Below, piece by piece: positions 1,738-27,096 of a stretch of DNA of 28,850 bases. Source of the DNA: a virus. Below the pieces are notes generated by a model. It saw nothing but the letters and a program-made list of their open reading frames with translations. It had not been told where the DNA came from and searched no databases. The stretch spans positions 1-28,850 of the IMG/VR virus record IMGVR_UViG_3300004463_000602. One strand, given 5' to 3'. Within the stretch, counting starts at the first letter, position 1. The number at the start of each line of letters is the position of its first letter. A program made the translations under genes and the position numbers.

Positions 1738-1977
1738 ATGAGAATCTTCGGAGAGTGGCGTTACGTAACATCGCTCCTCAACCTCGCTCGCAGGCAGAAC
1801 AAGATCATCTCCCGCCTGCGCGCCGAGAACATCGAGCTCCGCCGTGACTGCCTCGATCTCGCCTGCGCCTGGCGCATATCCATCGAGCGCCCCGAAGTGG
1901 ACATCCGAGACGACCTGAGCGCGATGATCGACAAGCTCAAAGACGAGCTGTCCGTGCTCGAGGAGCACTCCGTTTGA
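1738..1977 (+). CDS. Small helical (coiled-coil-like) protein of unknown function
   Basis: A 79-residue protein beginning at ATG 1738. Residues 12-35 and 58-76 show regular spacing of Leu/Ile with charged residues, suggesting two helices that could pair as a coiled coil; two Cys lie at about residues 38 and 43. No known domain is recognised. It sits inside the glycosyltransferase run and is the only gene there that has its own promoter-like sequence and lacks a ribosome binding site. Codons 8-10 carry the palindrome GTTACGTAAC. Its stop overlaps the TTG of the next transferase. It could be a regulator or a partner subunit for the transferases; neither is shown by sequence. Confidence 0.6.
   Translation: MRIFGEWRYVTSLLNLARRQNKIISRLRAENIELRRDCLDLACAWRISIERPEVDIRDDLSAMIDKLKDELSVLEEHSV
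1760..1769. repeat. Palindrome GTTACGTAAC, copy 1
   Basis: Perfect 10-bp inverted repeat inside the 79-residue gene, starting 22 bases after its ATG and about 30 bases after a promoter-like -10. It has the form of a dimeric protein binding site. See the finding on the four copies. Confidence 0.6.
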
Positions 1978-2597
1978 ACGTCTCCATCATCATCGCCACC
2001 TACGGCGATCCATCCTGGCTGACGATGGCCGAGGAAAAGGCTCTGCCATCAGCCGAGGCACAGGATCCTTTCCATGTCATCATCGGGCACCGGGAAGAGG
2101 GGACGATCGCAGAGGCTCGGAACCGTTTGGCTGGGGAGGCCAGAGGTGACTGGCTCTGCTTCCTCGACGCAGACGACGAGCTTGGCCCTGGGTACATCCA
2201 GGCCATGCAGCGGGCTTACGAGCAGAGGGGTCGAGACGACGGCACTCCTCCTCTGCTCACGCCCGCCGTCTCCTACGTGCGCAAGGGACGCAAGTACCCG
2301 CCTCAGTTCAACGACCGTGGCATCCCACTGACCAAGGACAACTGGCTGGTGGTCGGCACGCTCGTTCACCGAGATCTCTTCATGCAGGTGGGCGGCTTCT
2401 CCGACTATCCGCATGGCTTCGAGGACTGGAGCCTGTGGGCGAAGTGCTGGAAGGCCGGAGCGGAGATCGTCAAGGTTCCCCAGGCCGTGTACATCGCTCA
2501 CTTCAATCCTCGCTCCAAGCACCGCCTCCAGTGGCGTGACCGGCGCTGGCAGGTGGAGATGCACAACAAGGTGGCAGCGGAGCTGTTTCCAGAATGA
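1974..2597 (+). CDS. Family-2 type glycosyltransferase
   Basis: A 207-residue protein with a clear GT-A pattern. It opens with NVSIIIATYGDP (first beta strand and donor loop), carries a run E.RN.LA..A.GDW before the metal site, and has DADDE at residues 65-69 as the DxD motif. A later FEDW segment around residue 148 supplies the acidic catalytic-base region typical of family 2. The start is TTG at 1974, overlapping the previous stop as TTGA, consistent with the overlaps throughout this block. It should transfer a sugar from a nucleotide donor in the cytoplasm; specificity cannot be read. It has no membrane segment. The next gene encodes a tiny membrane peptide that could tether it. Confidence 0.85.
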   Translation: MNVSIIIATYGDPSWLTMAEEKALPSAEAQDPFHVIIGHREEGTIAEARNRLAGEARGDWLCFLDADDELGPGYIQAMQRAYEQRGRDDGTPPLLTPAVSYVRKGRKYPPQFNDRGIPLTKDNWLVVGTLVHRDLFMQVGGFSDYPHGFEDWSLWAKCWKAGAEIVKVPQAVYIAHFNPRSKHRLQWRDRRWQVEMHNKVAAELFPE

Positions 2598-2701
2598 GCT
2601 ACAAGCGCTACCCGCCGAGGATGAACTGCGGCACCTGGACTCTCTTCATGATGGGTCTGTGGGGGCTCGTCATCTGCCTCTTCTGGTGGTTGTGGCTGTG
2701 A
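2594..2701 (+). CDS. Tiny single-span membrane peptide
   Basis: A 35-residue reading frame, ATG 2594 to TGA 2699-2701. The first dozen residues are basic and polar (SYKRYPPRMNCG) and the rest is a continuous hydrophobic, Trp-rich helix long enough to span a membrane, giving a positive-inside orientation. Both ends overlap neighbouring genes by four bases (ATGA with the upstream transferase, GTGA with the downstream one), which argues that it is translated. No family is recognised. It could anchor the glycosyltransferases at the membrane, or be a small holin-like peptide. Confidence 0.55.
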   Translation: MSYKRYPPRMNCGTWTLFMMGLWGLVICLFWWLWL

Positions 2702-3333
2702 AGCTGCACACGGTCTTCATCACCTACAACCGGCTCGAGTTGACCAAGCAGGCGATCGAGAGTTATCTGGACACGGTGAGCGTCCCAAGCACGATCTGCG
2801 TGGTGGACAACGGCTCGACGGACGGGACGCAGCAGTGGTTGAAGACGACGCCGTACCTGACGCTCCTCTTCCCCGAGAACAAGTACCCCGGCTTCGCCTG
2901 CAACGCAGGCTGGGAGATGGCACCCCCTGACTGCAAGTTTCTGCACCGGGCCGACAACGACCACGGCTTCCTGCCCGGCTGGTGGGAGGAGGTCGAGCGC
3001 ATCTTCGGCTCGGAGAAGGTGGGGCAGGTGGGCCTGCGCATGGATTCCGAGGAGCCGAGCGGCCACTACAACGTGGGCGGCAACAACGTCATTCGCAAGC
3101 TGCTCTGGGACAAGGGGCTGCGCTACGACGAGCGCCCCTGGCCCGAGTACCCACCGGGCTACTCCGAGGACTCCTTCTTCTCTCCCGCCGTCGAGCAGAT
3201 GGGCTACACCTGGACGCGCGTGAAGCGTCCCTGCATCCGGGAGCTGGAAGCTGCGAACGCGGACGATCCCTACTACCGGCACTCCTGGGGAGCCAGGCGC
3301 ATCTACGGCTTCGGCCTGGAGCACACGAACTGA
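2698..3333 (+). CDS. Family-2 type glycosyltransferase
   Basis: A 211-residue protein read from GTG 2698, which overlaps the upstream stop; a longer reading from 2413 would bury the previous two genes and is rejected. Motifs are typical of family 2: VFITYNR at the N-terminus, VVDNGSTDGT with D37 in the donor-binding loop, and HRADNDH (D86 and D88) as the metal-binding motif. An acidic SED stretch near residue 160 may hold the base. The C-terminus carries RHSWGARRIYGF. It is a soluble cytoplasmic enzyme by appearance. The close chain of transferases suggests stepwise building of one glycan, but donor and acceptor are unknown. Confidence 0.85.
   Translation: MKLHTVFITYNRLELTKQAIESYLDTVSVPSTICVVDNGSTDGTQQWLKTTPYLTLLFPENKYPGFACNAGWEMAPPDCKFLHRADNDHGFLPGWWEEVERIFGSEKVGQVGLRMDSEEPSGHYNVGGNNVIRKLLWDKGLRYDERPWPEYPPGYSEDSFFSPAVEQMGYTWTRVKRPCIRELEAANADDPYYRHSWGARRIYGFGLEHTN
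3318..3332 (+). promoter_or_regulatory. Shine-Dalgarno plus probable CTG start
   Basis: GGAG (3318-3321) lies eight bases before CTG (3330-3332), and that CTG overlaps the upstream TGA as CTGA. No ATG, GTG or TTG is available in frame near this point, and the protein homology begins right here, so CTG is the best start. Confidence 0.55.
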
Positions 3334-3896
3334 TCTCGATAGTCATCCCGACGATCGAGGGTCGGGAGAACTTCCTCGGCCGTGCCATTCGCTCCCTCAC
3401 CGACTTCAAGCCGCCGGCGCACGAGTACGAGTGGCTGATCTACCACGACCGGCCCACCTGCAACATCGCCTGGAACGAGGGCGCGCTCGAGGCCCAGGGC
3501 GACTACATCCTCTTCTTCGCGGACGACCTGGAGGCGCACGCGAACTGGGCGGAGACGGGGATTGCCTGGGTCGATTCCGGATACCTTCCCTGCGCGCGCA
3601 TCCTCAACCCGGACGGCACGCTTCAATCCTGCGGAGACGATGCCTACGAGAAACCGACCTGGACGCCTGCGCAGGTGGCCCGCGTTCCTTTCTGCACTCG
3701 GGAGCAGATGCAGGCGATCTTCCCGGTCATGCCGACCCAGTACATGGGCGACTACCACTTCTCGCACTTGGGAGCCAAGCATGGTTGGCCCACGGTGGTC
3801 GTGCGCGAGTTCGTCTTCACGCACCATCTGACCGATGTGGGAAGATTGCACACGCTCCGTGACGACTACGAACGCTTTCTCGAAGTGATCCGGTGA
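3330..3896 (+). CDS. Glycosyltransferase-like protein with probable CTG start
   Basis: A 188-residue protein. The N-terminus ISIVIPTIEGRENFLGRAI is the first strand and helix of a family-2 transferase, and FADDLEAH (D65, D66) is in the metal-site position. It is shorter than typical family-2 enzymes. A C-terminal FTHHL segment may contribute metal or acceptor contacts. The only in-frame ATG lies about 350 bases upstream, inside the previous gene in another frame; the natural start is CTG 3330, giving the same four-base overlap with the previous stop as the other cassette genes. Its own stop overlaps the GTG of the epimerase. Function is assigned by fold pattern and context. Confidence 0.7.
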   Translation: MISIVIPTIEGRENFLGRAIRSLTDFKPPAHEYEWLIYHDRPTCNIAWNEGALEAQGDYILFFADDLEAHANWAETGIAWVDSGYLPCARILNPDGTLQSCGDDAYEKPTWTPAQVARVPFCTREQMQAIFPVMPTQYMGDYHFSHLGAKHGWPTVVVREFVFTHHLTDVGRLHTLRDDYERFLEVIR

Positions 3897-4792
3897 AGGT
3901 CATCATCACCGGGGGCGCTGGCTTCCTCGGGAGCCACCTCGCCTTCGAGCTGGAGCAGTCCGGGCACGAGGTGGTCGTGTTCGACCTTCAGGTTTCTCGC
4001 TACCACGATCTCCGCTTCCCCGAGCTCGTCGAGCAGCGCTTCGAGGAGCACAAGGACGCGGACATCTGCGTCCACCTGGCGGCGAAGGTGGGACGGCTGT
4101 TCGGTGAGGAGGATCCGATGGAGACGATCACCGACAACGTGGGCATCACCGCGCTCGTCGCCCAGGCGTGCGGCAAGCACAAGATCCGCCTGGCCTACGC
4201 CTCCACCTCGGAGATCTACGGTGACAACGGCGAGGCCGTGTGCGACGAGTACGCCGGCCCCTTCTCCTGGCCGCACAACCTGTACGGGATCTCCAAGTAC
4301 TTCGGGGAGCAGGTGTGCCAGCACTACGCGCCCAGGAATCTCAACATCTTCCGCTTCTCGATGCCCTACGGGCCCGGGCTACCCGCAGGCCGGGGCCGAG
4401 CGGCGATCATCAACATGCTCCACCAGGCGCTGCACGAGAAGGCCATCCCCGTTCACGATGGGGCCGAGCGCTCCTGGTGTTACGTAACGGACACCGTGCG
4501 CGCAGTGCGGATGGTGCTGGAGCGCAAGGAGGGCGGCATCTACAACATCGGTCGGGACGACGCGGCGGTGCCGATGAAGCGCGTGGCCGAGCTCGCCTGC
4601 AAACTGGCCGACGCCCATCCCTTCCTGATCGAGATCGTTCCCGCGCCCAAGATGCAAACCGTGGTCAAGCGGCTGGCGACCGAGCGCATTCGCTCGATCG
4701 GCTGGAAGCCAGAGGTCGATCTGGAAGAGGGGATGGTTCGGACGCTGGAATGGGTACTCACCCTTGACGAGACGGGAGCAGTCGCAGCCTGA
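3893..4792 (+). CDS. NAD-dependent NDP-sugar epimerase/dehydratase
   Basis: A 299-residue extended short-chain dehydrogenase. It starts with KVIITGGAGFLGSHLA, the Rossmann NAD(P)-binding loop GxxGxxG at residues 7-13, with an acidic D at the end of the second strand (VVVFDLQ). TSEIYGD around residues 105-110 and the catalytic YGISK (Y131, K135) complete the triad seen in UDP-galactose 4-epimerases and related dehydratases. It interconverts or modifies a nucleotide sugar in the cytosol; the exact substrate cannot be read. It is linked by a GTGA overlap to the transferase cluster, so it most likely supplies a donor sugar to those enzymes. Length is usual for the family. Confidence 0.85.
   Translation: MKVIITGGAGFLGSHLAFELEQSGHEVVVFDLQVSRYHDLRFPELVEQRFEEHKDADICVHLAAKVGRLFGEEDPMETITDNVGITALVAQACGKHKIRLAYASTSEIYGDNGEAVCDEYAGPFSWPHNLYGISKYFGEQVCQHYAPRNLNIFRFSMPYGPGLPAGRGRAAIINMLHQALHEKAIPVHDGAERSWCYVTDTVRAVRMVLERKEGGIYNIGRDDAAVPMKRVAELACKLADAHPFLIEIVPAPKMQTVVKRLATERIRSIGWKPEVDLEEGMVRTLEWVLTLDETGAVAA
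4479..4488. repeat. Palindrome GTTACGTAAC, copy 2
   Basis: Perfect inverted repeat within the epimerase gene, spanning the codons for C-Y-V-T. It is identical to copies 1, 3 and 4. Confidence 0.6.
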
Positions 4793-4806
4793 GGAGGAGG
4801 TGAGTC

Positions 4807-4956
4807 ATGGCAGCCAAGAAGAAGTCCGCATCCACGAAGAAGGAGCCGGAGCTGGTGGTCGAGGACGGCCAGTACTACATCGTCGATGGCAGTAAGAAGA
4901 TCGACGTGGGCCGTAGCCGCATCTACGCCGAGAGGATGCTCGCGGAGCACAAGTGA
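4807..4956 (+). CDS. Small Lys-rich protein, unknown function
   Basis: A 49-residue protein with a strong ribosome binding site (GGAGGAGGTG) a few bases before ATG 4807. The first 15 residues are Lys/Ser/Ala-rich and basic, followed by a short beta-like segment (GQYYIVDGSKKIDVG) and a charged helix. No domain is recognised. Its stop overlaps the GTG of the lysin gene, so the two are probably translated together. The basic tail might bind nucleic acid or an acidic cell-wall polymer; this is speculation. Confidence 0.6.
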   Translation: MAAKKKSASTKKEPELVVEDGQYYIVDGSKKIDVGRSRIYAERMLAEHK

Positions 4957-6527
4957 TCGATCTCTTCCAGCCGGGGATCTACCTTCGCTGCCCCGGCGGG
5001 AACGTCGAGCGCCCCGATCTGCACAAGCTCGCCGCCAAGTGGGGAGCGCTCAACATCGGCACCGACGCCTGCGTGCAGCCGGCGGATGCCTGGGACAAGC
5101 AGCGTGAGCTGTACCGCGCGGCCAGCTTCCCCTTCTTCCCCTGGCGCTACTGCCACTCGATAGCCGAGGTCGAGAATCTCATCTCCACCGCCGTCCTCTG
5201 GAAGTCGCCCGCGATCGGGCTCAACCTGGAGAACGTGGCCGGAGAGAAGCTCGACCTGCGCGAGGTGCGGGATGTGGTGCTCGACTTCTGGGTGCAGCCG
5301 CACGGAGGCCAGGTGCACATGGCGACTCTGCCCTGGGTCCAGAACGAGCAGGGCTGGGGCAATCTCGACTTCGCCGTGGCCGCGCTCGAGATCTTCCCCG
5401 ACGAGCAGAACATCTGGCCGAACGGGAAGTTCGACGCCAAGATCCTGAACGACTGCATCGAGCACGCCTTCGCCGAAGGATTGAAGAAGGTGACGCTGAT
5501 GCTCAAGACCAAGGACTACGTGCAGTCCGAGTACGGCTCGGCCGTCTCTATCTGCCGCTCGCTTTACACTGCCGACGATATACAGGTGAGCGTTCCTGCC
5601 TGGGAGGGCTGGGCACAGGCGCAACCCTGTACCCGCTTACAGGAGGCTCCCGTGACCGACCCCTGGTATCTGAAGCCGTACAAGAAGGGCACGGCGATCG
5701 GGCCGACTCATCTGCCCCGCGTGCTCAAGCCACCGGCGGATGGGAACGTGATGGCGGGAGACGACGTGACCGCGATCAAGCGCACCGTTTCCCACGCCCA
5801 GCGTTGGCTCCCCTGGCAGCCCTCGCAGTGGGACAACCGCTACCGGGAGTCCTTCGCGATGGGGGCCGGGGGCGGGCGGGTGGCGACCTCGGGCGTGCGC
5901 GGCTTCCAGCGCCAGGAGGGACTGCCGCAGACGGGGATCGTCGATGACGTGACCTACCAGCGGATGCGGCGAGCTCTGATCCCGGTCGGCCCGCGCGAGG
6001 GCGACCACATCTTGGACGCGATGTCGATCAAGCTGATTAAGGAGGCGATCGAGGAGTTCGGGCCGGCAGGGAAGCGGGAGAAGGTGCGCGCCGCGATCAC
6101 GGAGTTCTGCGTGCAGGCAGAAGGTGCCGAGGAGGTCTGGCACTACTCCCAGCAGCGCCCCTATACCGGGCTCGGGCTCGCCCCCGAGCGCGAGCAGTGG
6201 GCCGACTGCTCCTCCTACGTCATCAAGACGTACTGGGCCGCGCGTCAGAAGACGGGCATCCTTATCCCTGATCCCTCCAAGTACCGCTACTCCGGCTACG
6301 GCAACACCTGGGACGATCTGGACGGACACCCGCGAGTGACGAGCGGCAACTACCTGGTCGGGGACCTCGCCCATTACGACGGGCACGTCACCCTCTGCCG
6401 CAAGGCCGGGAACGCAGCAACCTCGGTCTGGTCGAGCCACGGAGCAGAAGGTGGCCCAGAGGCGCTGCCGCTCTACTACCGGGGCGACTTCCGCTTCGTC
6501 TGCCGTCCTCCGCTCCTTCCCTCCTGA
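4953..6527 (+). CDS. Three-domain peptidoglycan hydrolase (lysin) with NlpC/P60-type end
   Basis: A 524-residue protein. Residues 1 to about 235 look like a TIM-barrel glycosidase-type domain (strands such as ALNIGTDAC, AIGLNLENV, VTLMLKTKDY). Residues about 265-345 match a peptidoglycan-binding repeat, with GVRGFQRQEGLPQTGIVDDVTYQRM. Residues about 375-520 fit an NlpC/P60 cysteine peptidase: Cys419 in WADCSSYV, His478 in YDGHVTLC, and a possible third residue around His496. It should cut peptidoglycan, either for lysis or, as a virion part, during DNA entry. The start is GTG 4953, overlapping the small Lys-rich gene. Placement beside the portal rather than with the late membrane genes leaves both roles open. 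Confidence 0.75.
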   Translation: MIDLFQPGIYLRCPGGNVERPDLHKLAAKWGALNIGTDACVQPADAWDKQRELYRAASFPFFPWRYCHSIAEVENLISTAVLWKSPAIGLNLENVAGEKLDLREVRDVVLDFWVQPHGGQVHMATLPWVQNEQGWGNLDFAVAALEIFPDEQNIWPNGKFDAKILNDCIEHAFAEGLKKVTLMLKTKDYVQSEYGSAVSICRSLYTADDIQVSVPAWEGWAQAQPCTRLQEAPVTDPWYLKPYKKGTAIGPTHLPRVLKPPADGNVMAGDDVTAIKRTVSHAQRWLPWQPSQWDNRYRESFAMGAGGGRVATSGVRGFQRQEGLPQTGIVDDVTYQRMRRALIPVGPREGDHILDAMSIKLIKEAIEEFGPAGKREKVRAAITEFCVQAEGAEEVWHYSQQRPYTGLGLAPEREQWADCSSYVIKTYWAARQKTGILIPDPSKYRYSGYGNTWDDLDGHPRVTSGNYLVGDLAHYDGHVTLCRKAGNAATSVWSSHGAEGGPEALPLYYRGDFRFVCRPPLLPS

Positions 6528-6538
6528 AAGGAAAGACG

Positions 6539-6703
6539 ATGAAGGTTCAGATCTTCAAGGGCAACGGGCGACAGCCCTGGTACATCCGGCTCGTCTCCGG
6601 CAACGGCCAGATCCTCAACATCAGCGAGGGCTACTTCTCCAAGTGGAACGCCAAGCGCGCTGCGCGCAAGGTCTTCCCTGACATCAGAATCGAGGTTGTG
6701 TGA
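6539..6703 (+). CDS. DUF1508-like small protein
   Basis: A 54-residue protein with a GAAAGGAAAG ribosome binding site before ATG 6539. The sequence F.GN.RQPWYIRLVSGNGQIL followed by SEGYFSKWNAKRAARKVF resembles the DUF1508 (YegP-type) motif, in which an NG....SEGY core is followed by a Lys/Arg-rich helix. These small alpha/beta proteins are widespread, and their molecular role is not established. It sits directly after the lysin and its stop overlaps the next ATG as TGATG. Assignment rests on the motif alone. Confidence 0.6.
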   Translation: MKVQIFKGNGRQPWYIRLVSGNGQILNISEGYFSKWNAKRAARKVFPDIRIEVV

Positions 6704-6789
6704 TGCTGGCAGACGGCGGCGTGTACATCTCGGGCGGACTGCTCGTTCTCATTCTCATCATCGTTCTGATCGTCTACATCGTTCGATGA
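6703..6789 (+). CDS. Single-span membrane peptide (holin-like)
   Basis: A 28-residue frame that is almost wholly one hydrophobic Leu/Ile/Val helix, with a short polar N-terminus (LADGGVYISGG) and a terminal Arg. It overlaps the previous stop by one base and the next ATG by four, strong grounds for it being translated. Its size and position just after a lysin suggest a holin-type or holin-regulating peptide, although no family is recognised. A simple membrane tether is another possibility. Confidence 0.5.
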   Translation: MLADGGVYISGGLLVLILIIVLIVYIVR

Positions 6790-7121
6790 ACATCCCCGAC
6801 TGGTGGGAGGCAGCGCTGCTAGCGCTCGCTGCCTGGCGCATCTTTCAGCTCATCGCCTTCGACTCGATCCTCGACCAGCCCCGCCGTTACGTAACGCGGC
6901 TCGGGAAGAAGTGGGAGAAGGAGGGCGATGCGCTGCCCAAGGAGTACCGGATGAAGTGGGCGCTCTTCATCAACTGCCCCTACTGCCTGGGCTTCTGGAT
7001 CACCCTCCTCTGGTGGGTGGCGTGGCAGATCTGGCCGCATGGGACACTCATCGTCGCAGCCCTCTTTGCTCTCCATGCGGGCATGATCGCTGGTCACAAA
7101 CTTCTGTCGTCCGACGAGTGA
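6786..7121 (+). CDS. DUF1360-like membrane protein
   Basis: A 111-residue protein; the start ATG 6786 overlaps the upstream stop as ATGA, so the longer reading from 6696 is not needed. Residues about 8-25 and two segments near residues 58-75 and 78-95 are hydrophobic. The motif INCPYCLGFWITL and the upstream LDQPRRYVTR are the hallmarks of DUF1360, a family of small phage and bacterial membrane proteins of unknown biochemical role. Next to a lysin it is a candidate lysis-accessory or membrane-pore protein. Codons 34-37 contain the palindrome GTTACGTAAC. Confidence 0.65.
   Translation: MNIPDWWEAALLALAAWRIFQLIAFDSILDQPRRYVTRLGKKWEKEGDALPKEYRMKWALFINCPYCLGFWITLLWWVAWQIWPHGTLIVAALFALHAGMIAGHKLLSSDE
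6886..6895. repeat. Palindrome GTTACGTAAC, copy 3
   Basis: Perfect inverted repeat, extended to 12 bp here (CGTTACGTAACG, 6885-6896). It lies inside the DUF1360-like gene, about 240 bases upstream of the possible promoter at 7125. Confidence 0.6.
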
Positions 7122-7124
7122 CGC

Positions 7125-7130
7125 TAAGAT
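7125..7130 (+). promoter_or_regulatory. Possible -10 element (TAAGAT), leaderless start
   Basis: TAAGAT stands exactly seven bases before the ATG at 7138, the same geometry as TATACT before 1738, and both are followed by a C-rich spacer ending GCCC. No Shine-Dalgarno is present. A promoter here would serve the portal-capsid block. The -35 region (TTCTGT at 7102-7107) is weak. Confidence 0.3.
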
Positions 7131-7137
7131 CGCGCCC

Positions 7138-7194
7138 ATGTGCGGTTGTAGAAAGCCCAAGCTCCCCGCAAGCCCGACACCACCCCCCAAGTAG
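7138..7194 (+). CDS. Very short Cys/Pro peptide (possible)
   Basis: An 18-residue frame: CGC near the N-terminus, a basic stretch, then a Pro-rich end. It lies between the DUF1360-like gene and the portal gene and has no ribosome binding site but a possible leaderless promoter. Such CxC micro-ORFs before structural genes are plausible in phages, but at this length chance is a serious alternative. It may instead act as a leader for the portal gene, whose GTG follows six bases after its stop. Confidence 0.3.
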   Translation: MCGCRKPKLPASPTPPPK

Positions 7195-7200
7195 GAATAC

Positions 7201-9018
7201 GTGGCGCTACCGACCCGGCGCGTCCAACGACGTGCTCTGACGGCTTCTGCCGTCAAGGTCGGTAGCCGAACTGACTCTTCCTACGTCAAGCGGCTCGAGG
7301 AGCCGTGGCAGGGTCGTGCATTCACTTACTGCGACACGATAGGCGAGTGCCGAGCGGCCTCGCAGTTCATCGCTCGCATGATGAGCCGCGTCTCCTACTA
7401 CCCCGCTTTCCGCTCCTCGGACGGGAAGCTGAGTGAGATCAAAGAAGGCCCGCCGGTTGAGCGCCTGAACCGCATCCAGGATCCGGGCGGTGGGCGCACC
7501 CGGCTTCAGTTCGACTACGGGCGGCTGATGTGGATCACGGGCGAGGGGATGCTGTTCGGCTACCGGCTCGAGCAGGAGGACGAGCGCTGGCGCTTCCTCT
7601 GGAACGAGGAGATCAAGATCCGCGAGGACGGCACGGCCGTTCGCCTGGACGCGAACAAGAAGGAGACGGAGGATGTGGGCGTGGCCTACCGCCTGTGGAC
7701 TCCCTCGCCACAGCAGTCCGAGTTTGCCGACTCCCCGATGAAGCCGATCACCGACATCGCGGAGGAGCTGATCTGGCTCACCAAGTCCGTGATGTCGACG
7801 GCCGTGAGCCGGATGACGAACGGCGCGGTGGTGATGGCGCTGGAGGCGATCCCGGAGGATCCGATCCAGCCGCAGGGCGGAGAAGAGGATCCCGAGAACA
7901 ACACATTCCTCAAGGGCTACATCGAGCACGTCACCAACCAGATCGAGAACCCGATGTCACCGGAGGCGCGCGTTCCCTACCTGTACACGCCGCCGGCTGA
8001 GTTCGCGGAAGCGTTCAGGTGGGTCAAGATGCACGACCCCGCTACCGACTACTTGGAGCGCGAGCTGCGCAAGGAGTGCATCGAACGGCTAGCGCTCGCC
8101 TTCGACATGCCCCCGGAGGCGCTCCGGGGGATGACGGACGCCAACCACTGGACGGCCAAGCAGGTCATGCACGACATGTGGCGCTCGTACGGGATCGTCA
8201 AGGCGCAGCAGTTTGCCGACGAGCTCGGGGAGGCGTACCTGCGGCCTGGCCTGGAGATGGACGGCTTCGAGCGCTGGAACGAAGTGGTCATCGGGCTCGA
8301 CGACTCGCAGGTGGTCATCTCCCCCGATCGCACCGAGGATGCAGACCAGGCTGCGGACCGTGGCTACATCAACGACGAGGCATACCTCAAGCTCAAGGGC
8401 ATGGAAGACGACATGGCCGCGACCGAGGACGACAAGCGGATCTGGCTGGCGGTCAAGCTGCGCAACCCGGCGCTGCTCAAGGGCACACCCTACGAAATCG
8501 ACGATCCGCAGCCGACCGGCTTCGACGGGCCGGCCCCTTCCTCGAACGGAAACGGGGATGCGGCAGACGGGCCTCGCGATCCGGGCACGCGACTCGTCTC
8601 CAGGCAAGAGTCCCGTACCGCTTCCGGTGAGGTGCTCGGTGCTGCCAGGATGGCGCTCCTGCGCTGCCGGGAAGCCGCCGGCGCACGCCTCCGACGCTTG
8701 CAGCAGGACTGCGACGAGTGCAAGGAAGAGACGGACGGAGTGCCGAACGCGGTCGTGGCCTCCGTACTGGGAGTGAAGCGCGTGGGCGAGATGTGCGATC
8801 CCATGCGGCTCGTCTCAGGCACGGCCGAGGGATTCCGCACGCTGCTCGCCTCCTACGGCTTCGACGGGACGCAGGCGCACTCACTCGCGCAAATGATCGA
8901 GGTATACGCGGCCCGCACCCTCTTCGACAAGACTCTTCCCGATCTGCCATCCGGCTTCGTCGCCCAGGTGGAGAAGGCAAAGGAGATCTCGAGTGCCCTG
9001 GTCAATACAGCGGCGTGA
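7201..9018 (+). CDS. Portal protein
   Basis: A 605-residue protein of the size and pattern of siphovirus portals. The segment starting at residue 163 (YRLWTPSPQQSEFADSPM) fits the conserved W..P.P...E.DSP portal motif, and residues about 301-320 (FDMPPEALRGMTDANHWTA) fit the conserved FG/FDMP.E...G....N.W.A stretch before the stem and wing. A Cys-containing, charged C-terminal region (about residues 470-600) may face the capsid interior. Twelve copies would form the ring through which DNA is packaged and ejected. The start is GTG 7201 with only a weak ribosome binding site. The protease gene begins 26 bases before the portal stop. The large terminase gene usually found upstream is not in this window. 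Confidence 0.85.
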   Translation: MALPTRRVQRRALTASAVKVGSRTDSSYVKRLEEPWQGRAFTYCDTIGECRAASQFIARMMSRVSYYPAFRSSDGKLSEIKEGPPVERLNRIQDPGGGRTRLQFDYGRLMWITGEGMLFGYRLEQEDERWRFLWNEEIKIREDGTAVRLDANKKETEDVGVAYRLWTPSPQQSEFADSPMKPITDIAEELIWLTKSVMSTAVSRMTNGAVVMALEAIPEDPIQPQGGEEDPENNTFLKGYIEHVTNQIENPMSPEARVPYLYTPPAEFAEAFRWVKMHDPATDYLERELRKECIERLALAFDMPPEALRGMTDANHWTAKQVMHDMWRSYGIVKAQQFADELGEAYLRPGLEMDGFERWNEVVIGLDDSQVVISPDRTEDADQAADRGYINDEAYLKLKGMEDDMAATEDDKRIWLAVKLRNPALLKGTPYEIDDPQPTGFDGPAPSSNGNGDAADGPRDPGTRLVSRQESRTASGEVLGAARMALLRCREAAGARLRRLQQDCDECKEETDGVPNAVVASVLGVKRVGEMCDPMRLVSGTAEGFRTLLASYGFDGTQAHSLAQMIEVYAARTLFDKTLPDLPSGFVAQVEKAKEISSALVNTAA

Positions 9019-9916
9019 TGGCCGCTACTGCGTGGTCAAGGAAGGCGGCGAGACGGTCAAGTGCCACGCTCGGCGCACGGACGCGATCAAGCACCAGCGA
9101 GCGCTGTATGCGAATGAGCCGTCAGCGAGGAGGGCTAGCATGAGCGACGTGAGCGATAACGCTCTGAACCTGAAACAGATCCAAGCGGGTTTGGATGGGT
9201 TGAGATACCTCCTCACCAATACAGCCAATACCAGCACCGCCGGTTTGACTGCTGCTTCGGTCGCTCCGCTCAAGCCGGCGCGCGCTCTCTTCGAGCGCCC
9301 CGAGCCCGACCGTGTGATGCCCATGACCTACGAGGACGGAGGTGCCGTCTATGGACATCTGGCTCCCTGGGAAAGCTGCCACGTCGGGCTCTCCGGAGGT
9401 GCCTTCGACGAGTGCGTTGTGGCTCCCCGGTCAGCAACTGACTACCAGCAGTTCCATCTCGGCCAGCTCGAGACTGCCGAGGGGGACACGATCGCAGTCG
9501 GCAAGATCGTTCTTGCCACCGGGCACGCATCCGCAGCAGCAGACCTCCAGGCCGCTACCCGTCATTACGATCACACGGGCTCCGTAGGCGCGTTCATCCG
9601 CGCTTCCAACGGCAGGCACGGGATCTGGGCCTCGGGCGTACTCCGTTCCGACCTCACTCCCGAGCAACTGCGCGACCTGCGCGCGAACTCCGTCTCCGGT
9701 GACTGGCGCGCTTTCAACGGCGTGCTCGAGCTGGTGGCCGCGCTTGCGGTCCCGGTGCCGGGATTCCCGATCCCGAGAGCGCAGTTGGCGCTCGCTGCCT
9801 CCGGTGAGATCCAGACCCTGATCCTCACTCCGGAGCCGGTCATTGCTTCCTACAGCGCGAGCCAGCGCCGCAAGCGCAAGCGCCTGACGGCTGAGATCGA
9901 CTCGGTGTGCTCCTAG
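8993..9916 (+). CDS. Capsid maturation protease with N-terminal accessory domain
   Basis: A 307-residue protein read from GTG 8993, which has AAGGAG upstream. Residues 1-48 hold the phage head-protein motif CVVKE....KCH...TDA..HQ.ALYA.E. The main domain has His191 (TRHYDHTG) and Ser235 (SGDWR) 44 residues apart, the spacing and context of prohead serine proteases, together with the flanking GKIVLATGHA and a C-terminal PVPGFPIPR. It should cut scaffold and capsid precursor during head assembly. Its position between portal and capsid genes agrees. The acidic third catalytic residue was not identified. An internal ATG at 9140 with a strong ribosome binding site may make a second, shorter product. 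Confidence 0.7.
   Translation: MPWSIQRRDGRYCVVKEGGETVKCHARRTDAIKHQRALYANEPSARRASMSDVSDNALNLKQIQAGLDGLRYLLTNTANTSTAGLTAASVAPLKPARALFERPEPDRVMPMTYEDGGAVYGHLAPWESCHVGLSGGAFDECVVAPRSATDYQQFHLGQLETAEGDTIAVGKIVLATGHASAAADLQAATRHYDHTGSVGAFIRASNGRHGIWASGVLRSDLTPEQLRDLRANSVSGDWRAFNGVLELVAALAVPVPGFPIPRAQLALAASGEIQTLILTPEPVIASYSASQRRKRKRLTAEIDSVCS
9127..9142 (+). promoter_or_regulatory. Strong internal ribosome binding site and ATG
   Basis: GAGGAGGG (9127-9134) stands five bases before ATG 9140 inside the protease gene, in frame (codon 50). It is a better initiation site than the annotated GTG and separates the N-terminal accessory domain from the protease domain. Confidence 0.5.
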
Positions 9917-10548
9917 CACGCATCCAGGGCCACCCCGCTCGCAGCCACCTCCATCAGCCGCTCGCTGACTCGCTCGGCCTCCCCACGGAGGTCTTCCTGC
10001 ACGCGAGCGACCCGCCCTCTCCCTGGGACGGCTACAAGCAGTGCCTGCGCGATCTGCCCGATGGGCACGTCCTGATCGTTCAGGACGACGTAGAGGTTGC
10101 CTCGAACTTTGCACCGGCCGTTGAGCGAATCGCCGCCAGCAACCCGGACATGCCGGTCGTGCTCTTCCTCGCCAAGCTGCCGCAGCGAGTTGCTACCCAG
10201 GCGCTAAGAGCCTCGCTGCGCAAGGAGTGCTACGTGGCGATCAACTTCCGGCAGATGGAGTTCTGCCCGGTGGTGGCCGTGCTCTGGCCGACCCAGATAG
10301 CGCGCTCGTTCCTGGACTGGACGGAGCAGAACCCTCACCGTCTGGGCCATCCCGCTCCCCGCTCGGACGACGGAGTGATGGGCCGCTGGGCTGCCTTCGC
10401 TCAGCAGACGATCCGTTTCACGGTGCCCTCGATCGTAGAGCATCCCGACCGTGAGGCATCCCTGATCGGGCGCAGGGCGATGTGGGGGAAAGACAAGGGA
10501 CGCTGCGCTCTCCTGCTCGCAGCAGACGCATCCGACTACAACTGGTAG
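9907..10548 (+). CDS. Capsid-module glycosyltransferase-like protein
   Basis: A 213-residue protein starting at GTG 9907, overlapping the protease stop. Conserved-looking blocks are WDGYKQCLRDLP, the metal-site candidate VQDDVEV (D60, D61), PVVAVLWP, RSDDGVMGRW (residues 152-161) and PSIVEHPD. This pattern recalls a family found next to capsid genes in actinobacterial phages and commonly annotated as glycosyltransferase. It would use a nucleotide sugar to modify a protein, with the capsid or another virion protein as likely target. It differs from the family-2 enzymes at 1974 and 2698 and is probably a separate lineage. The molecular function is inferred, not demonstrated here. Confidence 0.65.
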   Translation: MLLARIQGHPARSHLHQPLADSLGLPTEVFLHASDPPSPWDGYKQCLRDLPDGHVLIVQDDVEVASNFAPAVERIAASNPDMPVVLFLAKLPQRVATQALRASLRKECYVAINFRQMEFCPVVAVLWPTQIARSFLDWTEQNPHRLGHPAPRSDDGVMGRWAAFAQQTIRFTVPSIVEHPDREASLIGRRAMWGKDKGRCALLLAADASDYNW

Positions 10549-10662
10549 CGCCGTCCGACCCGATCTGCTTTACTCCGCGCAGCGCGAACGGCCACATGCC
10601 ACCCGCGCAGGAGGTTCCATACGAACCCTCCGTTACGTAACGCTACGTAAAGGAGCAGTTCA
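10549..10662 (+). promoter_or_regulatory. Leader region upstream of the major capsid gene
   Basis: This 114-base gap is the longest non-coding stretch on the + strand. It contains a repeated octamer CCGCGCAG (10575-10582 and 10603-10610), a hairpin GGAGGTTC/GAACCCTCC with one bulged base (10610-10631), the palindrome CGTTACGTAACG (10631-10642), a half-like CTACGTAA (10643-10650) and the capsid ribosome binding site AAGGAG (10649-10654) eight bases before ATG 10663. The dyad abuts the ribosome binding site, so protein binding or RNA folding could control capsid expression. A weak -10-like TGCTTTACT is at 10566-10574. Confidence 0.5.
10632..10641. repeat. Palindrome GTTACGTAAC, copy 4
   Basis: Perfect inverted repeat, extended to 12 bp, and the only copy outside a gene. 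It ends 21 bases before the capsid ATG and is followed at once by CTACGTAA, a partial second copy. Confidence 0.65.
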
Positions 10663-12444
10663 ATGGAACCGCTGTTTCCCGAGATTCAGGAAGATCTCTC
10701 GGGCCTCACCGACGAGGAACTGACGACTCTGATCTCGGAGCACCGCGACGCGGCTGCCCTGATCGAGGAGGAGGACGAGAAGTTCACGGCCGGTCTGAGC
10801 GCCGACGAGATCGTGGCCGAGCTGGACCGAGGACTGGAGCAGGCCAAGAAGCTTGTCGAGCTCCAGGCTTCGCGCGTCCAGGAGGCCGAGAACTTCCAGA
10901 GCGAGAAGAGCAAGCGCACGAGCGCCTTCACCGAGCTGTTCGCGCAGCCGGAGGAGACGATCACCGACGCCGATCCCGGCGACGAGGGCGCTCCGCTCGA
11001 GGTGACGGCCGAGGACGAGCCGGAGCCGGACCCCGCCCCCGACCCTGAGGACGAAGGAGAAGAAGTGGCAGAGCCGGAGCGCGAGCTGGTGCTCGCAGAC
11101 GCAAGCCCGGCCGAGCCGGTGAAGATGCGGCGCACGACCCCTCCGCCTTCGGCCGACAGGCTGCCGGCGGTGGCAGAGAAGCCCGCGACTCCGCTTCTCC
11201 CCTTCGGCCCGATGGCCCGCTCGAACGCCGAGCCCCTGACCCCCGACAGCCTGGCGGCTGCCTGCCAGGACGCGATGCGCTCGATCCAGCACATCCCCAA
11301 GACCCCGGACGGCGGCGGCTACCGCGAAGGCGGCTACGCCGTCTCCGTGGCACGGGCCGAGTTCTCCTGGCCGGAGGACCGGACGCTGACCGAGAACGCG
11401 ACCGAGAACGCGAAGAAGCTGGCCGAGGTGATCGTGGCCTCGATCCCCGGCGGGATCGGTGAGTACTCGCTGACCGCCTCCGGTGGTCTGTGCGCACCGG
11501 CCACGCCCTTCTACGACATGGTGAACTTCGCAACCGACGCCGAGCCGGTGTGGGATGCGCTGCCCAAGTTCAGGGCCGCGCGCGGTGCGGTGTCGATCCC
11601 CGAGTCCACCTACATCGCGGACATCACGACCGCGATCTCGAACATCACGGCAGCGAACGACGCGCTCGGCGGAACCTTCGCCACCAAGTCCTGCCAGGAC
11701 CTGGACTGCGCCGAGTACACCGATACGGCGGTGCAGATCCTGGCGCACTGCCGCGAATACGGCAACCTGAACGCCATCTCCTGGCCGGAGCGGATCCGCC
11801 ACGAGAACCAGCTCACGATGGCCGCTCTCTCGCGCACGAGCGAGACGTTCATGCTGGACAGGCTGAAGGCGCTCTCGGTCAACGTGACCAACGGTGCCGA
11901 GACGCTCTCTGCCCTGATCTACTTGGTCGACGCGATCGTGAAGGCCAAGTTCGGGATCATGGGGCGCTTCCGGATGCCGGCCGGCTCACGCTTCGCGGCC
12001 TACATCCCCTACTGGGTCCCGGACATGCTGGCCCTGGACACGATCCAGACGATCGACGGCAACCGCTTCCGCTCGAAGGGTGAGCTGGTCGGTTACCTCC
12101 AGTCGCTCGGGATCGACCCGGTGTTCTACCTGGACAGCCCCTCGGATGGCACCACGCAGCTTCCGGATGCCTCCCAGACGGCGGCTGCGATCGACGCCCT
12201 GCCGGACAACGTGCAGTGGGCGATCCACCCCCAGGGCGCGTTCATCGGTCTGGACATGGGGAGCCTGGAGCTCGGAGTCGTTCGTGACTCCACCCTCAAC
12301 TCGACGAACGACTTCCAGGTCTTCGGAGAGAGGTTCCGCAACGTCGCCCGAGTGGCCCCGGCACAGAGCGCCTACTGGGTCACCAGCGACATCTGCGCAA
12401 TCGGTCAGTTCCCGCCCGCCGGGACTGCCAGGACCTGCGACTGA
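10663..12444 (+). CDS. Major capsid protein with N-terminal scaffold-like region
   Basis: A 593-residue protein. Residues 1 to about 105 are highly charged and helical, and residues about 105-180 are acidic and Pro-rich; this resembles the scaffolding delta domain fused to HK97-type capsid proteins and should be removed by the protease at 8993. From about residue 183 the sequence follows the actinophage capsid pattern: GGLCAP.TP.YDM near residue 274, a Cys-bearing loop CQDLDCAEY near residue 346, then YGNLNAISWPER and the RFAAYIPYWVPDML stretch. It should form the HK97-fold shell. The ribosome binding site AAGGAG fixes ATG 10663. The cleavage site cannot be pinned, but the LLPFGPMARSNAEPL area is a fair candidate. 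Confidence 0.85.
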   Translation: MEPLFPEIQEDLSGLTDEELTTLISEHRDAAALIEEEDEKFTAGLSADEIVAELDRGLEQAKKLVELQASRVQEAENFQSEKSKRTSAFTELFAQPEETITDADPGDEGAPLEVTAEDEPEPDPAPDPEDEGEEVAEPERELVLADASPAEPVKMRRTTPPPSADRLPAVAEKPATPLLPFGPMARSNAEPLTPDSLAAACQDAMRSIQHIPKTPDGGGYREGGYAVSVARAEFSWPEDRTLTENATENAKKLAEVIVASIPGGIGEYSLTASGGLCAPATPFYDMVNFATDAEPVWDALPKFRAARGAVSIPESTYIADITTAISNITAANDALGGTFATKSCQDLDCAEYTDTAVQILAHCREYGNLNAISWPERIRHENQLTMAALSRTSETFMLDRLKALSVNVTNGAETLSALIYLVDAIVKAKFGIMGRFRMPAGSRFAAYIPYWVPDMLALDTIQTIDGNRFRSKGELVGYLQSLGIDPVFYLDSPSDGTTQLPDASQTAAAIDALPDNVQWAIHPQGAFIGLDMGSLELGVVRDSTLNSTNDFQVFGERFRNVARVAPAQSAYWVTSDICAIGQFPPAGTARTCD

Positions 12445-18018: not shown

Positions 18019-18845
18019 TCGGGCTCGTCCTGATCGTGAAGAACGAGGCCGCGTTCATCGAGCGCTGCCTGTCATCGGCCAAGCCGCTGATCTCGCACTG
18101 GACAATCGTGGACACCGGCTCGACCGATGACACGAAGAAGATCATCCGCCGGACGCTGAAGGGCATTCCCGGCAAGCTGCACGAGCGCGAGTTCGTGGAC
18201 TTCGGGCACAACCGGACAGAAGCGCTCGAGCTGGCGAAGGGAACGGGCGAGTGGCTGCTCGAGCTCGACGCGGACATGACCGTGGAGGCGCACGAGGGGC
18301 TACTCGAATGGCTGGAGAAAGACCCGGACCCCGACGTGGCAGCCTGGCAGGTGGAGATCGTGGACTCGGGAACGCTCTGGCGCTTGCCCAGGCTCATCCG
18401 AGGAAATCTGGACTGGCGCTACATCGGCCCCGTCCACGAGTACCTCGATCCTGCGGGGAGAAAGCAGCGAGCGCTGCTCGGGCTGACGATCACCCATCAC
18501 GGATCCTCGCGGCATCCGATCCAGAAGTTCGACCACTACCTGCGCCTGCTCAAGCCGGGGCTGGATGCAGGTGATCCGCGTGCGGTCTTCTACTCCGCCG
18601 AGTGCCTGCGCTTCCTCAACTGCATCCCGGCTGCGATCGAGCTGTACGAGCAGCGGGCGGGGATGAACTCCTTCGAGGAAGAGGCATGGTATGCCCAGTA
18701 CATGGCTGCCAGGCTCCGCCGTAACGTAACGGATCTGTTGAAAGCCTACGAGCGCCGTCCGCACCGGCCCGAGCCCCTGTGGGCTGCGGCCGACATCGTT
18801 CGTACCATGCCCTCAGACGACGTTCTCTTCAAGGAGCTGCGATGA
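18015..18845 (+). CDS. Family-2 glycosyltransferase with helical C-terminal domain
   Basis: A 276-residue protein from GTG 18015, which overlaps the upstream stop. IGLVLIVKNEAAFIERCL and IVDTGSTDDT (D33) give the nucleotide-sugar site, and LDADM (D85, D87) the metal site, a textbook GT-A pattern. The family includes TPR-linked members in which helices like the C-terminal RRNVTDLLKAYERRPHRPEPLW recur, here from about residue 175 on. The helical part could bind a protein acceptor. It sits right after the fibre and decoration genes, which makes those proteins the natural substrates. Soluble and cytoplasmic by appearance. Confidence 0.85.
   Translation: MIGLVLIVKNEAAFIERCLSSAKPLISHWTIVDTGSTDDTKKIIRRTLKGIPGKLHEREFVDFGHNRTEALELAKGTGEWLLELDADMTVEAHEGLLEWLEKDPDPDVAAWQVEIVDSGTLWRLPRLIRGNLDWRYIGPVHEYLDPAGRKQRALLGLTITHHGSSRHPIQKFDHYLRLLKPGLDAGDPRAVFYSAECLRFLNCIPAAIELYEQRAGMNSFEEEAWYAQYMAARLRRNVTDLLKAYERRPHRPEPLWAAADIVRTMPSDDVLFKELR
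18721..18730 (+). repeat. Direct-repeat variant of the palindrome half-site (GTAACGTAAC)
   Basis: Two GTAAC half-sites stand head to tail inside the glycosyltransferase gene, whereas the four GTTACGTAAC sites carry them head to head. It may be unrelated. Confidence 0.35.
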
Positions 18846-19966
18846 GCTGCGAGATCGGCCCCGGACTCCCCGGATCGGTCATGGAGGCGTATGCCGAGGG
18901 CTTCGCTTGCGGCTTCGCCGGAACGATCACGGTCACGATCGACGACTCCGAGGGCAACAACGTGCTCGGCCCGACCACGGCCGACATTATCGAGATCGAG
19001 TGCACGGTGGACGACTACGGCGTCTACCGCTACGTGGGCACCTTCCCCCTCGATCCCAGTCTCAGCCCCTACGTCATCACCTGGGAAGGGCCGTCCGGCA
19101 CTGACCCGGACATCATCACCACCGCTTCCGAGGAGATCTGTGTCTCCTCCGAGCTGATCGCCGTTCCCTCCAACCTCGGTCCCTGCACTCCCTGGATCAC
19201 CGGGGACGACGTGGCCGCCTGCTGTGGAGTGGAGGTGTCCTCGGGCGTGGTCTACGACGACGTGGCTACCCAGGCCCAGAACCTGCTGCACCAGCTCTCG
19301 GGGAAGAAGTTCCCCGGCCTGTGCGGGCCGGTCACTGTCCGTCCCTGCCGGGACAACTGCTCCTGCTTCCCCTTTCAGCGCCTGGCCTACGCAAGCGGCG
19401 GCTCGAGGCTGATCTGGACGGGAGAGTTCTGGGGCTGGGGGAACGGGAGCTCCAACTGCGGCTGCGGCTGTCTCTCGCAGGTGCTGCTCTCGGGCTACCC
19501 GGTGCAGATCATCACCCAGGTCAAGGTCAACGGCGAGGTGGTTGCTCCCTCCGAGTACCGGCTGGACGAGAACCGCTACCTCACCCGCGTCAACGGCAGC
19601 TTCTGGCCCTCCTGCCAGGATCTGTCCCTTGCTGACACCGAGGAGGGCACCTTCTCCGTCTCCTATGCCTACGGAGCGAGCGTTCCCACGGAAGGCGAAG
19701 CCGCCGCCGCCCAGCTCGCCTGCGAGCTGTACAAGGAATGCGCGGGGCAGACCTGCGCGCTTCCCAAGGGCGTAACTCGTGTCTCCAGGCAGGGGATCGT
19801 GATCGAGAAGATGGCCTTTACGCGCTGGGCCTTCTCCAGCGTCCAGGGCTGGAACACCGGCCTCCCTCTGGTCGACGCCTTCCTGAACGCCCATAACCCG
19901 TACGGCTTCCGCCGCCCGCCGATCTTCTGGGGACCGGGGCGCAGGTACGCGAGGCCGCTCGCGTGA
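18842..19966 (+). CDS. Head-to-tail adaptor with an extra N-terminal domain
   Basis: A 374-residue protein from ATG 18842 (ATGA overlap). From about residue 115 it follows the actinophage adaptor pattern: PWITGDDVAACC, a helix AQNLLHQLSGKKFPGLCGPVTVRPC, YPVQIITQVKVNGEVV, YLTRVNGSFWP.CQDL, LACELYKECAGQTCALPKGVTRVSRQG and a final VDAFLNAHNPYG. Adaptors of this type bind the portal ring and extend the DNA channel. Residues 1 to about 105 are a separate beta-rich domain (GTITVTIDDSEGN, a DDYGVYRYVGTF strand) of immunoglobulin type. The many Cys residues (19 or so) are typical of the family. The stop overlaps the GTG of the next gene. Confidence 0.75.
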   Translation: MSCEIGPGLPGSVMEAYAEGFACGFAGTITVTIDDSEGNNVLGPTTADIIEIECTVDDYGVYRYVGTFPLDPSLSPYVITWEGPSGTDPDIITTASEEICVSSELIAVPSNLGPCTPWITGDDVAACCGVEVSSGVVYDDVATQAQNLLHQLSGKKFPGLCGPVTVRPCRDNCSCFPFQRLAYASGGSRLIWTGEFWGWGNGSSNCGCGCLSQVLLSGYPVQIITQVKVNGEVVAPSEYRLDENRYLTRVNGSFWPSCQDLSLADTEEGTFSVSYAYGASVPTEGEAAAAQLACELYKECAGQTCALPKGVTRVSRQGIVIEKMAFTRWAFSSVQGWNTGLPLVDAFLNAHNPYGFRRPPIFWGPGRRYARPLA

Positions 19967-20268
19967 CCGTCACCCTGAACGAAGCCGCGATCAGCCGCTT
20001 CTTCTCTGATCCCTCCGGGCCGCTCGCACAGGACATCGAGCGCCGCGCTCAGAACGTCACCAACCTCGCCCGTCAGAACGCACAGCTCATCATCGAGAGC
20101 TTCCCCGTCTCCTCCATGATCGGCTATCGCATGGAGCAGGGGCCGGACGGCATCCAGGCCGTGATCGGAGTGACCGAGGACGGGCGCATGGCGCGCTACC
20201 TGGACGAGAAGGAGCAGCGCGAGCGCATCTGGCTCACTCCCGCCCTCAGGGACGGCTTCGATCTCTGA
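19963..20268 (+). CDS. Head-tail connector (neck) protein, HK97 gp10-like
   Basis: A 101-residue protein starting at GTG 19963, overlapping the adaptor stop. It has an N-terminal strand (VTVTLNEAAISRFF), a long helix (QDIERRAQNVTNLARQNAQLII), then a strand-turn-strand (YRMEQGPDGIQAVIGV) and a polar C-terminus. The helix flanked by strands fits the gp10-type neck proteins that join adaptor and tail terminator. Its place between adaptor and terminator genes is the expected one. Weak sequence similarity keeps certainty moderate. Confidence 0.6.
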   Translation: MTVTLNEAAISRFFSDPSGPLAQDIERRAQNVTNLARQNAQLIIESFPVSSMIGYRMEQGPDGIQAVIGVTEDGRMARYLDEKEQRERIWLTPALRDGFDL

Positions 20269-20795
20269 TGGCGGGCACCGGCCCCGGAGATCTGCACGAC
20301 ACCTGTTTGGATCTGCTCACGGCTGCCGCCCAGGCGCTGGACACGATCCCCGTCTTCGCTCCGGGGCTTGCGGGTGCTCCGGAGCGAAGGTTTGTCTCCG
20401 CCGGCACCCCGGTACTCGACTGCTGCGATCAGCTCACGGTGCATATGGGGCCGATCGCAGAGGATCCTCTTTCTCCGTCGAGTCCTGCTTCGGGGCAGAG
20501 AGCACGCCTCGACGCTCGCAAGAACGCGGTCACGCTTCTGCTCACCCTCGGTCGCTGCATGGATCTGAGCGCCCTTCCGAACCCCCCTCCGGTGGACGTG
20601 CTCGAGCTGGACGGAGAGCAGCACAACGCCGATGGCTGGGCGCTCTGGAACGTGCTCTGGAACCAGGTGCGCTCCGGTGACCTCTTTACACTCTGCGCAG
20701 ACTCCAAGCCCGAGCTCCGGCCCCTGGCACCCTCCGGCGGCTGCTCCGGATGGGTGATGGCGTACCGGATCTGGCTAGAAGGCTACGAGGAGTAA
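20268..20795 (+). CDS. Tail terminator-like protein
   Basis: A 175-residue protein whose ATG shares one base with the previous stop (TGATG). CDQLTVHMGPIA, an R..VTLLLTLGRC segment and PSGGCSGWVMAYRIWLEG at the C-terminus follow the pattern of actinophage tail terminators, which cap the tail tube and join it to the neck. Gene order (neck, then terminator, then chaperones) agrees. A loop rich in Ser and Pro near residue 65 is likely an insertion. Confidence 0.6.
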   Translation: MAGTGPGDLHDTCLDLLTAAAQALDTIPVFAPGLAGAPERRFVSAGTPVLDCCDQLTVHMGPIAEDPLSPSSPASGQRARLDARKNAVTLLLTLGRCMDLSALPNPPPVDVLELDGEQHNADGWALWNVLWNQVRSGDLFTLCADSKPELRPLAPSGGCSGWVMAYRIWLEGYEE

Positions 20796-20820
20796 CCCGC
20801 AACCCGCACAGGAGGCAGAC

Positions 20821-21213: not shown

Positions 21214-21233
21214 CGGGAGGCGACCCGGACAGG
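21120..21233 (+). other. Open -1 frame joining the two tail chaperone genes
   Basis: Read one base back from chaperone 1, the sequence is open from 20952 to the stop at 21447-21449 and encodes AIGLWAVGWGQRRLLCGRIV, then AGGDPDRMSLRDFL across the ATG at 21234. This looks like protein rather than noise. No textbook X-XXY-YYZ heptamer was found; CTGGGGAC (21173-21180) is a weak candidate. Confidence 0.4.
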
Positions 21234-26352: not shown

Positions 26353-26450
26353 AGCGCTGTCCGCGTTGTAAGGAGCATAAGCCACTGTCAGTCCGCTGGC
26401 TCTGCACGCGATGTCATGGCCGCGTCCACGTAGAACTGAGGTCAGCATGA
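26349..26450 (+). CDS. Zinc-ribbon microprotein
   Basis: A 33-residue frame, ATG 26349 overlapping the hub stop and TGA overlapping the next ATG. It has two CPRC/CTRC pairs separated by 15 residues, the classic zinc-ribbon layout, plus a basic surface (Lys, Arg, His). The four-base overlaps at both ends argue for real translation. Such tiny ribbons often bind nucleic acid or a protein partner; in a tail-gene block its job is unknown. Confidence 0.6.
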   Translation: MKRCPRCKEHKPLSVRWLCTRCHGRVHVELRSA

Positions 26451-27064: not shown

Positions 27065-27096
27065 GTGGATCACGGGAATCGAGAAAAGGGGAAGGG

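Follow-up and report, generated by a model that had tools for sequence, protein, structure and literature searches.

In cluster A mycobacteriophages such as L5 and Bxb1, the immunity repressor binds stoperators, which are 13-bp asymmetric sites that lie mostly in one orientation to transcription and of which a genome can have as many as about 30 (PMC6550527). The start-associated sequences (SAS) of cluster K mycobacteriophages, also 13 bp long and without symmetry, accompany start codons (PMC3203893). KorB of plasmid RK2 is a ParB-type repressor that acts at its operators and also at a distance, for which it slides by means of an N-terminal CTP clamp (PMC11790492). Few phages are known to have dispersed operators whose action is not at promoters. 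In this work, we examine a 10-bp palindrome, GTTACGTAAC, in IMG/VR virus record IMGVR_UViG_3300004463_000602, which was used whole and is called the window below (28,850 bases; GC content, 64.8%). Judging from its sequence, this record covers part of the genome of a tailed phage with relatives among the actinobacteriophages. Comparison with related phages indicates that the copies of the palindrome are almost certainly selected DNA-binding sites.

The four exact copies of GTTACGTAAC that a first-pass annotation had reported are present in the window (Table 1). As it had described, two of them extend to 12 bp (CGTTACGTAACG, at 6886 and 10632), the three genic copies each code for Tyr-Val-Thr, and the remaining copy lies upstream of the capsid gene with a partial copy, CTACGTAA, adjoining it. 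A second-order Markov model gives an expectation of 0.002 exact copies in the window, and the earlier hand estimate of about 0.01 was a fair one (computed, ~0.002 to 0.01). Among window 10-mers seen at least four times, GTTACGTAAC is the most overrepresented. With one mismatch allowed, 5 matches were found, versus a shuffle mean of 0.06 and a maximum of 1 in 100 shuffles. The fifth is the variant GTAACGTAAC at 18721, which had also been pointed out before, and no further copy within one mismatch exists in the window. Because the closest relative, G001, has identical sequence at the corresponding codons (at 23886), the comparison places the 18721 site as a real member of the set, so the statement that no copy follows 10.7 kb holds for exact copies only. 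Site 1 likewise has a one-mismatch homolog, GTAACGTAAC, at the same codons (RNVT) of G001, at 4922.

Next, we considered whether chance, codon bias, or a shared Tyr-Val-Thr peptide might account for these copies. When synonymous codons of the coding part were shuffled with the proteins held fixed, the mean was 0.023 exact copies and never more than one was obtained in 1,000 shuffles; three are observed. The window proteins hold just three YVT/YIT tripeptides, and all three coincide with the sites. Epimerases naturally contain YV within their YVxD region, which is a point for the shared-peptide explanation. Nevertheless, we rejected this group of explanations as having a negligible chance of being correct, because the copies are in excess under every null, some are noncoding, and the DNA is kept while the peptide changes.

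To follow the palindrome beyond the window, we used 31 related virus contigs (G numbers), all metagenomic and with approximate gene calls, from portal searches of IMG/VR; the capsid protein alone as an IMG/VR query did not find close relatives. The motif is conserved across the clade, which bears out a check that the first-pass annotation had proposed. The related phages contain about 67 sites at one mismatch or fewer, and each of six near-complete genomes (44 to 54 kb) has 5 to 7 sites. The ends of G008 and G033 overlap by 127 bases and those of G014 by about 180 bases, and these three genomes, each about 44 kb long, are therefore complete or almost complete. The nine records counted as motif bearing (373 kb) hold 19 exact and 31 one-mismatch sites, versus 0 and 2.7 expected, and two-mismatch forms are not in excess in them. 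Ten comparison records (483 kb) hold 0 exact sites and 1 one-mismatch site, versus 0 and 2.3 expected. All of these genomes share ancestry, and P values calculated from them overstate their independence. Many of the related contigs bear the motif and others lack it. No site was found in three long related records, G018 (77 kb), G025 (71 kb), and G027 (101 kb), and the isolated actinophages tested, which are distant but share a related capsid, have at most one site (a single copy in Atuin).

The consensus from 44 nonredundant sites is YGT(T/c/a)ACGT(A/g/t)ACR, and the full 12-bp dyad is YGTTACGTAACR. The outermost pair is symmetric (position -1, 35 C and 8 T; position +10, 37 G and 6 A), although it lies outside the search pattern. 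These symmetric outer positions point to a protein dimer on double-stranded DNA as the expected source. Most asymmetric site variants keep one half-site perfect. The palindrome itself has no orientation relative to transcription, and codon constraints bias the asymmetric variants. In G005, one site is centered in a 28-bp perfect palindrome, GAGGCGGCCGTTACGTAACGGCCGCCTC (oriented positions ~3379 to 3406).

The genic sites allow selection on DNA to be separated from selection on protein. The site in the DUF1360 gene is present at one mismatch or fewer in the window and in 13 further records, including a near duplicate, with protein identities of 36 to 87%. Its peptide varies among the motif-bearing records (RYVT, RYIT, and RHVT), and this position is occupied by residues such as W-V-L or R-L-L in most relatives that lack the motif (RRWVLR, RARLLR, and similar). 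Because the DNA is kept while the peptide changes, the site shapes the protein. In G008, the codons of the epimerase site read GTTACGTGAC, whereas in G001 and G004 the motif is gone and the peptide is retained, which implies that sites turn over individually. Thus, loss of the motif with the protein kept, which the first-pass annotation had named as a sign against it, is seen at the epimerase site and clearly not at the DUF1360 site. A few other genes read the site in a different frame, which gives Leu-Arg-Asn/Asp and uses TTA for the Leu; in the window, TTA serves for 1 of 703 Leu codons. The earlier suggestion that sites in genes and leaders are those of a DNA-binding protein is well supported by these sequence comparisons, given the clade-wide conservation, the dyad symmetry, and the one co-occurring DNA-binding gene described below. 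If so, predicted DNA-binding sites override protein sequence.

The sites are spread over the early region, the surroundings of the terminase, and positions in the glycosyltransferase, DUF1360, and portal genes and the capsid leader, as far as the adaptor gene. Behind the adaptor gene, the tail block contains no site in 78.9 kb (eight genomes), versus 13.2 expected from the remaining sequence, a comparison that sets aside one site of G014, located no more than 100 bp from where the adaptor gene ends, and whose effective number is made smaller by kinship. This placement is as expected if a long transcript can be stopped by sites in its early part alone, and it is not the expectation for a packaging or compaction signal. 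A sigma-70 promoter scan of the window gave nothing above shuffles.

To find a candidate binder, the genes of G008 and G014 (custom caller) were searched in six near-complete motif-bearing records and three motif-less records. A single gene was present in all six of the former and in none of the latter. It lies in the leftward early region and encodes a protein of 150 to 170 residues, and it is the one co-occurring candidate from the search for a DNA-binding protein gene that had been advised. We then retrieved new contigs with this protein alone (55 to 66% identity), and three of the four bear 6, 5, and 5 sites. Its remote homologs (32 to 35% identity) are accompanied by no site or one.

The protein matches the helix-turn-helix (HTH) family HTH_ParB with an E value of 4.5e-4, a hit that does not reach the curated cutoff, and has no other Pfam ParB domain; the N-terminal CTPase domain of ParB was not found with Pfam. 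In a Foldseek search with its AlphaFold2 model (pLDDT, 83), all of the first 23 PDB matches were Spo0J, ParB, Noc, or SopB chains, most with a probability of >0.8 and the isolated Noc DNA-binding domain among them. A ParB-type HTH is therefore what the predicted fold indicates, and by sequence the assignment is marginal. A PDB sequence search with the profile of the protein returned spurious matches only, and a literature search by title on the 10-mer and on ParB-like phage regulators yielded nothing relevant beyond the KorB paper. For ParA, the six genomes gave no PF13614 match and the predicted proteins showed no ParA-type Walker motif, and neither a tyrosine recombinase nor a resolvase was found in the six genomes. 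By synteny, the gene should lie ~7 to 10 kb past the right end of our fragment. Taken together, the sequence comparisons make the ParB-type protein the probable binder of the palindrome.

We observed nonrandom sites, selection at the DNA level, dyad symmetry, a tail block free of sites, and exactly one gene that occurs together with the motif. For these, we propose a dispersed dyad operator for a phage ParB/Noc-type HTH protein, most likely acting as a roadblock, and we put the chance that the sequences have been read correctly in this respect at about even. The early ParB-type protein would bind the dyads as a dimer. Once bound, it would impede transcription of some early genes and of the initial portion of the rightward late operon in a stoperator-like manner, its targets being the early, terminase, and head genes, where elongation would be blocked. 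Sites inside head and early genes would then impose protein sequence, and the tail genes, being downstream, would need none. A roadblock is the most likely form of action because many sites are inside early, terminase, and head genes and none are in the tail block; for roadblock or repression taken together, we consider the balance to be even or slightly favorable.

Several observations weigh against this proposal. The ParB-type gene falls outside the window, and the split of six records versus three does not amount to nine independent events, the genomes being related. The fourth contig retrieved with the protein, G035 (19 kb), has the gene and no site; the same stretch is site free in its relative G034. 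The Foldseek E values of the ParB matches are weak (0.1 to 1.1). Sites are not associated with start codons (16 of 61 within 40 nucleotides of a start versus 21% of random positions; P = 0.2), and their link to -10-like sequences is weak (24% versus 10%), so that their placement does not reveal what would be repressed. A role as a lysogeny repressor is doubtful because no integrase was found.

We also weighed other explanations for the sites. The same protein-site pair might organize, compact, or segregate the phage genome rather than control transcription. A dispersed centromere is present in the linear plasmid-prophage N15, and the ParB/Noc-type HTH and the palindromes dispersed inside genes, not tied to gene starts, would suit such a role. 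However, ParA, the ParB CTPase domain, an integrase, and other signs of plasmid maintenance were not found, and segregation leaves the empty tail block unexplained; we regard genome organization as unlikely. The binder itself could be different. The best rival is a double ribbon-helix-helix (RHH) protein, which has an RHH-like match and is encoded near the ParB-type gene in G001, G005, G008, and G033, but it was not found in G014 and G034, which bear 7 and 5 sites, and a weak relative of it occurs in the motif-less G027 and G018. We give this protein a small chance of being the binder. The sites could also serve a host transcription factor in phages that share one host group, a possibility raised in the first-pass annotation, for which we found nothing in support. 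The motif is missing from the related phages G018, G025, and G027 and tracks one phage gene, and the distant isolated actinophages tested carry at most the one site mentioned above, which makes a host factor very improbable.

Finally, the sites might act as RNA, as a small hairpin that is bound by protein or shapes translation, and the capsid leader is where this explanation draws its support. A site at one mismatch or fewer lies 28 to 32 nucleotides upstream of the capsid start in eight records (the window, G001, G014, G017, G020, G030, G033, and G034). In the predicted fold of the window, the hairpin at 10628 to 10655 pairs the ribosome-binding GGAG (10652 to 10655), and the partial copy CTACGTAA pairs with site 4 and closes the GGAG. 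Capsid leaders of the family have a mean z score of -1.67, versus -0.08 for 236 control leaders (P = 1.7e-7, uncorrected for relatedness). The outer stem, which holds the ribosome-binding site, shows compensatory changes, such as GGGGUUCC/GGAACCCC, AGGGUUCU/AGAACCCU, and GGGACUCC/GGAGUCCC, according to RNAalifold, run on eight sequences, and to a table compiled by hand (MAFFT alignments misalign the 3' arm). The palindrome forms the tip hairpin of this family-wide structure, but relatives such as G003 keep the leader fold with a different, unrelated tip sequence. Furthermore, most copies are elsewhere, many of them genic, and show no start codon preference; the variants GTCACGTAAC, GTAACGTAAC, and GTTACGTTAC disrupt the RNA pair yet retain one perfect DNA half-site; and the leader has no match in Rfam. 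RNA action as the general explanation is therefore quite unlikely. The capsid leader copy may have two roles, as a DNA site and, in the modeled fold, as part of an RNA structure, and this RNA role does not account for the genic copies.

The structured capsid leader (10611 to 10665 in the window, with the leaders of 17 relatives) is itself a candidate translation control element. The isolated Gordonia phages Phendrix, Sixama, and GMA2 have another conserved block before the capsid gene, GTTTACTGT..(T)CGAGCGCCCG.

Table 1. Positions of the palindrome copies, the predicted leader structure, and selected genes in the window
Feature	Position	Strand	Remarks
Site 1, GTTACGTAAC	1760..1769	.	Codons 8-11 (RYVT) of small open reading frame 1738-1977
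Site 2, GTTACGTAAC	4479..4488	.	In NAD-dependent epimerase gene (CYVTD)
DUF1360 membrane protein gene	6786..7121	+	Bears site 3; PF07098, E 2.5e-10 for reading frame 6603-7121
Site 3, CGTTACGTAACG	6886..6895	.	In DUF1360 gene (RRYVTR)
Portal gene	7201..9018	+	tblastn to annotated portal genes; query for finding relatives
Predicted structured 5' leader of capsid mRNA	10613..10655	+	Hairpins 10613-10627 and 10628-10655; fold z score -3.5
Site 4, CGTTACGTAACG	10632..10641	.	Capsid leader; starts 31 bp upstream of capsid ATG
Partial copy, CTACGTAA	10643..10650	+	Beside site 4; as RNA, UACGUAA pairs with site 4 UUACGUA
Major capsid protein gene	10663..12444	+	phrog_777, E 7.9e-45; ATG at 10663
Site 5, one-mismatch GTAACGTAAC	18721..18730	.	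RNVT; in glycosyltransferase-like gene 18015-18845
Tail block without sites	19964..28291	+	Likewise empty in seven relatives

The window contains genes for glycosyltransferases and an epimerase (1974 to 4792) and for the DUF1360 protein, portal, protease, capsid, major tail protein, a collagen-like tail fiber, adaptor, and tape measure. At least four glycosyltransferase-like genes together with the epimerase gene are encoded (1053 to 4792, 9907 to 10548, and 18015 to 18845), one of them between the protease and capsid genes. This gene content suggests that the phage may decorate its own virion or the host surface. No prophage relative was found when 84,980 genomes of bacterial and archaeal species were scanned.

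Other repeats were seen in the relatives. G027, which lacks GTTACGTAAC, has a different palindrome, CTTCTCA(ATAT/GGAC/GTCC)TGAGAAG, in 12 exact and 9 variant copies, and the same palindrome occurs in G018. Its positions in G027 (oriented) include 1378, 78756, and 88810 to 100149, and many copies stand directly before the ribosome-binding sites of leftward genes. The stem is conserved and the middle four bases vary, which suggests an RNA hairpin or a different operator. G037, a 40-kb phage with a remote homolog of the ParB-type protein, carries about 23 to 33 copies of CGCTACGGAGGTCCGCG-like words. G005 has about 20 copies of CCCTGGCAGCGTCCC-like words, which match AARDAARA-type low-complexity coding at contig ends.

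These results suggest that ParB-type HTH proteins of the stand-alone kind have a role in phages. That a stand-alone ParB-type domain has turned into a genome-wide, stoperator-like roadblock, in a family without a detectable integrase or ParA and independently of the cluster A repressors, is an idea that we hold tentatively, at less than even likelihood. The sites, one candidate for their binder, and natural genomes that have or lack the two have been identified from sequence, so whether stoperator-like control has had more than one origin can be tested directly.

Compared with known systems, the phage palindromes share with the cluster K SAS/ESAS that they are actinophage repeats with one copy just before a ribosome-binding site, and they differ in having no preference for start codons. 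The genome of phiC31 is also that of an actinophage with many copies of one perfect palindrome. Its conserved inverted repeats are called CIBs and are bound by the phiC31 repressor. In a k-mer scan of phiC31, which served as a positive control for finding dispersed operators, we detected 15 perfect CCTACTCACGTGAGTAGG-type copies, 14 of them intergenic. In contrast, the window palindrome has a different sequence, and three of its four exact copies are genic. We rejected the possibility that the ParB-type protein and the phiC31 repressor are homologous (hhalign probability, 0.3%).

The parS site is a palindrome whose ACGT center the phage site resembles, and the structure search relates the associated protein to ParABS and Noc by the same HTH fold. 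The label "parS-like," offered in the first-pass annotation, is thus supported in part, unexpectedly, by the ParB/Noc-type HTH, whereas ParA and the N-terminal CTPase domain are missing and the palindromic sites are dispersed, not clustered near the gene. The OB operator of KorB is a dispersed palindrome, and KorB of RK2 is the nearest protein analog. KorB has a CTP-binding clamp domain that was not found in the phage protein, for which only static binding is therefore expected. "Stoperator," the other label that had been suggested, fits as an analogy and not as membership in the cluster A type, given the perfect dyads and the lack of a detected integrase. As in cluster A, short sites are spread over the genome, most of them off promoters, and the site sequence differs between related clades. 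Unlike the cluster A stoperators, the sites described here are perfect 12-bp dyads, number 5 to 7 per genome, are in many cases genic, and have a ParB-type HTH protein as their likely partner.

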